Source: Thiotrichaceae bacterium
GTDB lineage: Bacteria; Pseudomonadota; Gammaproteobacteria; Beggiatoales; Beggiatoaceae
Reading direction: 5' to 3'
Length of the DNA: 48,779 nucleotides
Assembly (NCBI GenBank): GCA_016745055.1
Contig: JADGDF010000009.1
Span: 1 to 48,779, forward strand
Of the stretch, positions 46,037 to 48,474 are shown piece by piece (position 1 is the stretch's first letter; every line of letters starts with the position of its first letter). A program made the translations under genes and the position numbers. The notes beneath the pieces were generated by a model. It ran no database searches, was not told the origin of the DNA, and worked only from the letters and a program-made list of their open reading frames with translations.

Positions 46037-46056
46037 CCACCTGCTTTAGCAGGTGG
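46037..46056. repeat. Hairpin resembling an IS200/IS605-family end
   Basis: CCACCTGC (46037-46044) pairs with GCAGGTGG (46049-46056) around TTTA and is preceded by AAAG. The form AAAGCC-stem-CTTTAG-stem-GGT is that of IS200/IS605-type right ends, which fold as hairpins for the Y1 transposase. No transposase or tnpB is nearby, so it is a solo remnant or non-autonomous copy. It may now terminate atpC. Confidence 0.4.
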
Positions 46057-46070
46057 TTGTCGCCGCTGAC

Positions 46071-47078
46071 CTATATTTTTTCCCAAAATTCTTCAGGCAT
46101 TTCGATACACATTTTCAATGCGCCCATACTGCCACAAAATTCAGCGTCTTGGACACAAATGGCATCCCCTCCCCCATAAGCTTCTAGGCTTTTTTCAATT
46201 GCGATATCAATGCCTCGAAGCCGAGAACCGCCACCTGCAATAATGATGTTATGACGCAATTTTTCCTGAAAGTCAGGATCAAAAGTGCCCACCAATTCTT
46301 GTATGGCTTTACTGATTGGATTTGTTAGCCTTAAGCAGCAGTCCTTCAAAATGCCAGTAATATCATATTCGGCTGGAATACCTAGCTTCGTCAGTGTAAC
46401 TTTAACGGGATCGGAAGTGTCAGAAACATAACCATATTTTTCTTTGATACGTCTTATGATTTGGGGTGTTAATTGAACATCGGGGTATTTTTCAAGAATG
46501 GTTTTGGTAATTTCATTATCCAAAAAATTCCCTGCTATTTTTAGAGTACTTTGATCCTCTTCTTCAGGAATTGCACCATGCATACGGCATAAATCAGTTG
46601 TGCCAGCACCAATGTCAACGATTAAACACTCGTCAAATCTGTCTATTGCATAAGACACACTAAATGCTTCGCTGACGATTAAAATCTTGTTGATAAAATC
46701 TTTAGTCACATCAATAATTGCTTTTTTATTATTAATGCTTGCTTGAGCAGGCACACCAATAGCAACGTAAAGTTGGTCATCTTCTTGCCTTTCAGGCAAA
46801 GCTTCGGTGATAAGATGCTTTAAAATCAGTCCAGTTGCTTGTAAGGAACGCTCGTCTTCACAAATGACCCCATCGGCCAATGGCCATATCATATCTAAGG
46901 CCAGTCGGTTGCTTAATGCTTCATCTCCAAGTAAATAGTCTTTGCCAAATCGTTTTTTAGCAACGACATCTTTAGGGTAGCCCACGCATGTTCTGGTAGA
47001 CAAGCGTTTACCCGTCGATGTTGTAATACAAGATCGACTTGTGCCCAAATCGATGCCTACATAATAAGTATTTGACAT
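46071..47078 (-). CDS. MamK-like actin-family ATPase
   Basis: A 335-residue bacterial actin. Phosphate-1 loop GIDLGTSRSC (8-17), phosphate-2 DIGAGTTD (155-162) and adenosine loop AGGGSRLRG (281-289) are present. The match to MamK, the filament that aligns magnetosomes, is clear from phrases recalled in that family: VGYPKDV (32-38), GDEA (51-54), WPLADGV (65-71), VSEAFSVSYAID (135-146, with E137 near the catalytic Glu), AGNFLD (182-187) and GALKMCIEMPEEFW at the end. MreB and DnaK differ in these places. It is the last gene of a three-gene operon, 17 bases after the coiled-coil gene, with its own GGAGAA site. No other magnetosome gene is visible, so the cargo is unknown. Confidence 0.8.
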   Translation of the reverse strand: MSNTYYVGIDLGTSRSCITTSTGKRLSTRTCVGYPKDVVAKKRFGKDYLLGDEALSNRLALDMIWPLADGVICEDERSLQATGLILKHLITEALPERQEDDQLYVAIGVPAQASINNKKAIIDVTKDFINKILIVSEAFSVSYAIDRFDECLIVDIGAGTTDLCRMHGAIPEEEDQSTLKIAGNFLDNEITKTILEKYPDVQLTPQIIRRIKEKYGYVSDTSDPVKVTLTKLGIPAEYDITGILKDCCLRLTNPISKAIQELVGTFDPDFQEKLRHNIIIAGGGSRLRGIDIAIEKSLEAYGGGDAICVQDAEFCGSMGALKMCIEMPEEFWEKI

Positions 47079-47095
47079 AATTTATTCTCCATAAA

Positions 47096-47494
47096 TTATA
47101 AAACTTTTCTTAGTTGAATATTATCGTCAATGACACGTTTAAGCATAGTCAATTTTGATGAATCTTTTGTGGGTTGTGCCATTTTATTAAAAGTTGTCAC
47201 CGGAGATTCAGGAATAGTGGCGGTTGCATATTGCAGTTGTGACAATTTTTGCTGTAAATCTAGTATTTGCGTTGAGGTATTTTTCTGCTCAATGGTTAAA
47301 TTGTCAAGCTCTGTCTGCAAGTGGGTAAAATTTTCAGAAGTTTTAGAATTGATTACCTGTAACTCTTTAGTGCCTTTTTTAGTTTTCCAAACCTCCCAAA
47401 CAATTACTCCAACAACAGCAAAAATACTTACTCCCATTGAGGCAACACTGACTGTTTTTAAACCGACAAGTTTAGCAAATCCATGTCCAATCAT
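47096..47494 (-). CDS. One-TM coiled-coil linker protein of unknown family
   Basis: A 132-residue protein. One membrane helix lies at about 15-36 (VSVASMGVSIFAVVGVIVWEVW), followed by KTKKGTK, a positive-inside signal that places the rest in the cytoplasm. A heptad-like coiled coil runs from about 44 to 90 (FTHLQTELDNLTIEQ, ILDLQQKLSQLQ). The tail is partly disordered and ends with a basic helix (LTMLKRVIDDNIQLRKVL). Its ATG overlaps the stop of the solute-binding gene by four bases (ATGA), and the actin gene follows by 17 bases. By position it could anchor filaments to the membrane or to the lipoprotein. No homologue is recognised. Confidence 0.7.
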   Translation of the reverse strand: MIGHGFAKLVGLKTVSVASMGVSIFAVVGVIVWEVWKTKKGTKELQVINSKTSENFTHLQTELDNLTIEQKNTSTQILDLQQKLSQLQYATATIPESPVTTFNKMAQPTKDSSKLTMLKRVIDDNIQLRKVL

Positions 47495-48474
47495 TGTTTA
47501 TTTGTCTCTTTTTCTAAAGCTTGTACGAACTGCGCATTAATTATATTATCCAAGGTATCAATAGGTACCATGATACTTCCATTTTCCTTATAGAACTTGA
47601 CGATATATTGAGCAATATCAAATAATTGTCCACCTGATTTCATGGCTTCAATATTTTCGGCTAAACTCAGGTAATGTACACCTTCTACCCCAGTAAGCAT
47701 TTCTTCTATTGACATGTTTTCTGCATCCGCCATAATTGGAATAGCTTCTTTAGGATGTTTTTGTAAAAATATTTGAGTTTCAACAAGCGCAGCAATCATA
47801 GCTTGAACCGCCTTTGGATGTTTTTCCACAAAACTTTTTCTAATGGACAATACATCCGTAATAGTATTAAATGAATCGCCAGCTTTTCCTAGTACTTTAT
47901 AACCCTTAGCAATTGCTTCACTAGTGACGGGTTCCCAAGTGTGTCCTGCGTCTATTTCTCTATTATCTAATGCTGTCAGAATATCTTGTGCGGAAATATT
48001 TTTTGCGTAAAATTCCCCTTCTTTAATACCAAAATTATCCAAAAGTCTTAGTACAAACAAATGAGAAAAGGTATTAATGCCTTCAAACGCAACTGTTTTA
48101 TTTCTTAAATCAAATAGACTATTAATATTTGGGTGGCCAATAATAACATCTGCAGAATCAGAATAATCCACCGTATAAACAACTTGGGTAGGAAAACCTT
48201 CAGCATTAAGTAAAATAGTATCAGATAATGTACTAAATATAGCATCCACCTCCCCAAATTTATAAAGTGGAGTCACTTCTGAAAAGTGATTTTTTAATAT
48301 AATTTCAACTGAGATACCATATTTCTCAAAAAATCCATTCTTTTGAGCGACAAAAACGTGCGCATTACCTGGCCATATGTTGAGAGCCACTTTTATAGAA
48401 AGATTCTGTGAAGGTTCTTGTGAGCAGCCATTAATAAATATCAAAACAAAAATTAAACGTAGTAAATTTATCAT
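47491..48474 (-). CDS. NMT1/SsuA-like solute-binding lipoprotein
   Basis: A 327-residue periplasmic binding protein anchored by lipid. The signal peptide ends in the lipobox FINGC, with C17 as the lipidated cysteine. The mature part has the NMT1/THI5/SsuA pattern: VALNIWPGNAHVFVAQKNGFFEKYGI, then GEVDAIFSTLSDT, DLRNKTVAFEG, LDNREIDAGHTWEP and SIRKSFVEKHPKAVQAMIAAL. Such proteins bind sulfonates, taurine, nitrate or pyrimidine precursors for ABC uptake. No permease or ATPase gene is adjacent; the partners are a coiled-coil membrane protein and a MamK-like actin. The ligand is unknown. A GGAG site lies 5 bases before ATG 48474. Confidence 0.87.
   Translation of the reverse strand: MINLLRLIFVLIFINGCSQEPSQNLSIKVALNIWPGNAHVFVAQKNGFFEKYGISVEIILKNHFSEVTPLYKFGEVDAIFSTLSDTILLNAEGFPTQVVYTVDYSDSADVIIGHPNINSLFDLRNKTVAFEGINTFSHLFVLRLLDNFGIKEGEFYAKNISAQDILTALDNREIDAGHTWEPVTSEAIAKGYKVLGKAGDSFNTITDVLSIRKSFVEKHPKAVQAMIAALVETQIFLQKHPKEAIPIMADAENMSIEEMLTGVEGVHYLSLAENIEAMKSGGQLFDIAQYIVKFYKENGSIMVPIDTLDNIINAQFVQALEKETNKQ

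Follow-up and report, generated by a model that had tools for sequence, protein, structure and literature searches.

A conserved C-terminal tail on partner proteins tracks the Bbp family of bacterial actins across phyla

A conserved C-terminal tail was found to track the actin-like ATPase Bbp across bacterial phyla, a result which we had not expected. The tail is carried by the protein encoded directly upstream of Bbp in many genomes. Our preferred reading, to which we give a probability of roughly 60%, is that the two genes form a module consisting of a filament ATPase and a dedicated adaptor, and that the tail couples the filament to an anchor, which in the genome studied here would be the membrane. 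We rate as about an even chance the wider proposal that this stretch of ~20 residues is portable, that it plugs unrelated proteins of several phyla into Bbp-type filaments, and that it is a key to the function of Bbp in giant bacteria.

Bbp, known from unusually large sulfur bacteria, is the proposed genetic basis with which large bacterial cell size correlates, and neither a general partner nor a mechanism was known for it. A partner that co-occurs with Bbp and ends in a short conserved tail provides a specific and testable handle on the attachment of Bbp filaments. Should the tail prove to be portable, it would be the bacterial equivalent of the short motifs by which eukaryotic proteins bind actin, and its shuffling onto varied N-terminal parts would represent a general principle by which bacterial actins are linked to cargo and signals.

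The locus and the identity of its actin

The window, i.e. the whole stretch of DNA that was analysed (48,779 nucleotides), is one entire contig (JADGDF010000009.1) of a 4.65 Mb draft genome of a Thiotrichaceae bacterium. Three open reading frames lie near the contig end, all on the minus strand. They encode an NMT1/SsuA-like substrate-binding lipoprotein of 327 aa (SBP; 48474..47491), which we judge to lie outside the conserved module, a coiled-coil protein of 132 aa which we term the adaptor (47494..47096), and an actin-like ATPase of 335 aa (47078..46071). The order of the three genes given in the initial annotation was borne out by the coordinates, as were the overlap of 4 bases between the SBP stop and the adaptor ATG and the gap of 17 bases (47079-47095) between adaptor and actin. 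The sequence GGAG is present 8 bases 5' of the actin ATG. A strong hairpin on the minus strand (46037..46056), with an 8-pair stem and a fold z-score of -2.5, separates the actin from the convergent atpC, and is a probable terminator. The visible gene context stops at the contig end, 305 bases upstream of the SBP. A search of a plasmid collection yielded no match.

The actin had initially been described as MamK-like. Its best relatives in the PDB are MamK structures, with the MamK filament as the top match, and the MamK model NF040964 gives it 378 bits, as compared to 71 bits for MreB_Mbl. The former score is under the curated cut-off of 400 of the model, and true MamK proteins, found at many loci in a phylum-wide search, scored 427-548 bits. 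Phylogenetic analysis was performed on 83 rows using a quick method, with SH-aLRT support only and no bootstrap. In the resulting tree the window actin falls in a 36-member clade (SH-aLRT 100) together with the actin of Ca. Electrothrix gigas (L110), and true MamK from 17 loci form a different clade. In keeping with the initial annotation, the window actin branches outside MreB and Hsp70. The actin-type ATPase motifs GIDLGTSRS, DIGAGTTD and GGGSRL are all intact and show little or no variation across the alignment; orthologues with 68-83% identity were observed in 15 related genomes. Since the fully supported clade includes Electrothrix gigas, the source organism of the Bbp definition, the window actin belongs to the Bbp family. 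That it is an orphan MamK is ruled out by the separate clade and the score under the cut-off.

Bbp ("big bacteria protein") was defined in Ca. Electrothrix gigas in 2023 (PMC10580974). There, Beggiatoa, Thioploca, Thiomargarita, Thiothrix and Desulfonema are given as carriers, Bbp is held to be distinct from MamK, and its function is left open. No later paper on Bbp was found in the literature collection searched. The actin itself is thus already known.

The adaptor and the distribution of its tail

The adaptor contains one strong hydrophobic stretch, with a mean Kyte-Doolittle value of 2.25 from residue 14, which is predicted to form a transmembrane helix over residues ~14-36 (47387..47455, minus strand). 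Only about 13 residues precede this helix outside the membrane. KTKK follows the hydrophobic stretch, which suggests that the C-terminus of the adaptor is cytoplasmic. The predicted helix is followed by a coiled coil, a linker and the conserved C-terminal tail SKLTMLKRVIDDNIQLRKVL (47099..47158, minus strand), which was identified from alignments, a profile match (E 5.6e-13) and its co-occurrence with Bbp. For the adaptor homologue at locus L120, AlphaFold predicted a long helix (22-97) that takes in both the transmembrane segment and the coiled coil, and a disordered linker that sets it apart from a second helix at the C-terminus.

In genomes of the same family, the gene upstream of the actin usually codes for a short relative of the window coil. 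These relatives are poorly conserved except at their C-terminal end, which reads SKLAMLKRVVDDNxxLRK, and the last ~20 residues can be described as [LMF][LF]xx[IL][IL]x[DE]N[IVL]xLR. The Asn is invariant in two alignments (A2 and A3), the second of which was built from chosen tails, and in a motif count it is fixed by the search pattern itself.

When GTDB genomes were scanned using the actin alignment, 64 loci were obtained. The same-strand gene directly upstream of the actin was observed to carry the tail at most of the proteobacterial loci where the sequence extended far enough, and at many distant ones. These comprise loci from Gammaproteobacteria, Zetaproteobacteria (L109, L117, L121), a Desulfobacterales MAG (L102), Hydrogenedentes (L123-L125), and Planctomycetes including Brocadiales (L126-L128, L130-L132, L134, L135, L143). 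The pairing of a membrane-anchored coiled-coil protein with the actin, which had been proposed from the window alone, is a neighbourhood conserved in Thiotrichales and beyond. Outside the tail, the proteins of the distant groups differ and consist mostly of soluble coiled-coil-like sequence; the tail protein of L132 matches a GGDEF domain. The planctomycete tails rest on pattern and position, since the proteobacterial profile does not find them. In one planctomycete clade of 16 actins (L129, L133, L136-L142, L144-L150) no recognisable tail gene was found upstream, which tells against our preferred reading. Long Lys/Glu-rich low-complexity frames were noticed upstream of the actin at L137 and L138.

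The upstream gene of the published Bbp of Electrothrix gigas (L110) bears the same tail. It encodes a protein of 226 aa that ends in SSIFEKLIEENISLRKKK and is probably the 'hypothetical protein' of the published cluster. This cluster comprises bbp together with one hypothetical and one Kelch-like gene (PMC10580974), whereas the window operon has no Kelch-like gene. PMC10580974 describes the hypothetical protein as having no conserved domain and reports no general partner of Bbp, and its available part makes no mention of a tail shared across phyla.

A loose form of the tail pattern was present in 38/136 ORFs located just upstream of an actin, as against 2/2911 other ORFs, and one of these two is a genuine adaptor situated 3 kb from its actin. 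At distant actin loci, which were outside the first derivation of the pattern, it was present in 12/39 upstream ORFs and in none of 1769 others; these latter figures are somewhat flattering, since the pattern was loosened after some of the distant loci had been seen.

The adaptor is genetically coupled to the actin by neighbourhood and also by co-occurrence. We analysed a sample of 58 related genomes, 16 with Bbp and 42 without, using a 30-residue profile of the tail and a cut-off of E <= 0.01. The profile matched 14 of the 16 Bbp genomes, with a fifteenth at E 0.016, and none of the 42 genomes lacking Bbp (Fisher p about 1e-11 with 14 genomes counted and 5e-13 with 15, values that are not corrected for kinship). 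Within the same-genus pairs G002/G026, G012/G030 and G020/G034, the two genomes differ in Bbp and tail together. The sole Bbp genome without a tail match in the profile search was G001, the actin of which lies 141 bases from the contig start. Adaptor and actin are sometimes unlinked, as in G020, where tails were found on two contigs, neither of which carries its actin. The window genome also encodes a second tail-bearing coiled-coil protein (L072:2433-2819, on contig G000:C228), which has no actin beside it and an ileS-like gene directly after it.

In four deltaproteobacterial Bbp genomes, that of Desulfonema magnum among them, no tail gene lies next to the actin and the tail is found at another locus. 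Here it terminates a protein of ~350 aa that contains a receiver domain and a coiled-coil-like stretch (L217:1263-2315, L219:317-1402, L220:511-1581, L221:1498-2541). The receiver domain has Ser at the phospho-acceptor position (FSGLEM or LSGLEM). The region between receiver and coiled coil appears PilZ-like by eye, with no confirmation from Pfam. Over their coiled coil and tail, these proteins can be aligned with the coils of Gammaproteobacteria (E down to 6e-15), and the coil-tail half has thus become attached to N-terminal parts of different kinds.

A putative role of the tail in filament coupling

In the two-gene module that we favour, the N-terminal transmembrane helix of the adaptor would sit in the membrane, and its coiled coil would make a multimer, followed by a flexible linker. 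The tail helix would then dock on Bbp, by analogy with the ParR peptide on ParM and with MamJ or McaB on MamK, and this docking would either tether the Bbp filament to the membrane or nucleate it there. In other lineages the tail may act as a portable actin-coupling tag on receiver-like, GGDEF-like and soluble coiled-coil proteins. The likely role of such a module in large sulfur bacteria would be to position membrane compartments or other structures within the big cell. What the data show is the pairing of the genes, the conservation of the tail, its co-occurrence with Bbp, its absence from the MamK systems tested and the topology signals of the adaptor; direct binding of tail and actin, the tethering, and any stoichiometry, cargo or role in large cells are our inferences.

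A different explanation would be that the tail serves self-assembly, membrane association or the stability of the adaptor, and that adaptor and Bbp share a process without any contact through the tail. Such roles would suit a segment that AlphaFold predicts as a confident helix on its own and that is hydrophobic on one face. They are also consistent with our modelling of a natural in-frame read-through at L120, consisting of the upstream gene and the actin with stop codons read as Gly. The fused actin part was confident and matched the MamK filament subunit with a TM-score of 0.96 (by target length), but the tail helix showed no gain in confidence from the actin, with values of 85/76 in the read-through fusion with actin and 82/76 without it, an outcome that speaks neither for nor against docking. 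We nevertheless regard a non-binding tail as rather unlikely: the tail is the sole conserved part on otherwise unrelated proteins, its presence tracks Bbp and not membranes or coiled coils, and it is missing from relatives that lack Bbp.

The coupling of a filament to a membrane partner, as we favour it for Bbp, can be compared with known bacterial actins. MamK shares its actin fold with the window actin, and its partners MamJ and McaB link the filament to the membrane; McaB, which binds MamK, has only four residues before its transmembrane domain (PMC13170167). MamK differs, however, in forming a separate clade and in the absence of the tail from the MamK loci and MamK-only genomes tested. 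Where a MamK locus had a credible upstream protein, this was either MamJ-like or at least ended differently, and had no tail, whereas the partner of the window actin bears the tail and lacks a MamJ-like C-terminus. In ten genomes with MamK but no Bbp, the profile gave no tail match better than E 0.18, as compared to E 1e-8 to 1e-11 in three zetaproteobacterial Bbp genomes. That the tail is a feature of MamK systems was rejected on the basis of this best E value. On one zetaproteobacterial contig (G194:C113; L184 and L117), genes for MamK and Bbp were seen about 8 kb apart, each with a separate partner.

ParM-ParR offers a mechanistic analogy only, with no sequence relation shown, in that the actin-like filament is bound by a short peptide at the C-terminus of its partner, which in ParR comprises 17 residues (PMC9178275). 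It differs from the window module since ParR is a DNA-binding protein and ParM a distant actin. In the MreB-RodZ system, a bacterial actin is tied to the membrane through a single-pass protein. The window genome differs here in having its own, true MreB encoded elsewhere (477 bits) in addition to Bbp, and Bbp is described in PMC10580974 as lacking the RodZ interaction site. Mad28/MamK and the coiled-coil Mad proteins of Desulfovibrio magneticus (PMC12748827) represent a different gene set, belonging to a magnetosome cluster.

Neighbouring genes: a P-type ATPase and the SBP

A P-type ATPase of ~670 aa was observed beside the coil-actin pair in at least 8 genomes of Gamma- and Zetaproteobacteria (e.g. 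L070, L113, L190), and on both sides of it in G002. It retains the TGE, DKTGT and GDGxND motifs, and the CPC metal-binding motif is missing. Adjacency of ATPase and Bbp was found in 3 of 16 family genomes as against 0.27 expected by chance (P about 0.003). These observations would be in line with a module that primarily organises a P-type-ATPase-bearing membrane compartment and in which adaptor and Bbp act jointly with the CPC-less ATPase, the gene for the latter lying elsewhere in the window genome. We consider this improbable, since the ATPase family is hugely expanded and the adjacency is seen neither at the Bbp locus of the window nor at most other Bbp loci. The P-type ATPase was also rejected as an obligatory third component, being adjacent in some genomes only and massively multicopy. 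The CPC-less family reaches about 20 copies per genome in this group of bacteria, and 12 matches were found in the window genome (e.g. L205).

The SBP scores 73 bits against NMT1 and 121 bits against SsuA_fam (cut-off 163.5), and carries a lipoprotein-like signal (FINGC) at its start. The initial annotation had made it part of one system with the other two genes. No SBP relative was found at any other Bbp actin locus fetched, a set that holds no genome of the same genus, and the SBP was rejected as a conserved component. Of the proposed three-gene neighbourhood, coil and actin are kept across genomes, and the adjacency of the SBP was seen in the window genome only. It is very improbable that the SBP binds a sulfonate-like periplasmic ligand and signals via the transmembrane coiled coil to a ligand-responsive filament, as might be proposed from the overlapping genes with their shared direction of transcription, the lack of a visible ABC partner and the frequent pairing of the SBP family with sensor kinases, which makes a sensory use plausible; besides the missing relatives at other Bbp loci, the short N-terminus of the adaptor leaves almost nothing for contact with the SBP, and the nearest SBP relatives are often followed by a histidine kinase.

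Two paralogues of the SBP (51-54% identity) lie in tandem on another contig of the window genome (G000:C317), near a hybrid histidine kinase in which dCache-like, HAMP, PAS, HisKA, HATPase and receiver domains are combined. Four further genomes (L076, L077, L078, L085/L087) show a similar arrangement, in which an SBP with 39-46% identity is directly followed by a homologue of this kinase, and the remaining SBP relatives have other neighbours. The pairing with a kinase, which is seen for the close relatives at these loci and at L073 (G000:C317:20000-38000), is absent from the window copy. Genes for a permease or ATPase were found neither beside the SBP in the window, up to the contig end, nor beside the C317 paralogues. 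These arrangements are most simply explained if, in the window lineage, the gene for a kinase-type sensor SBP was moved to a position in front of the adaptor. The SBP looks like a lineage-specific neighbour and an unrelated passenger; given that its overlap with the coil is real, a lineage-specific link between SBP and adaptor may exist. The SsuA/NMT1-like lipoproteins that precede dCache/HAMP/PAS hybrid histidine kinases are apparently sensor SBPs that work without ABC partners.
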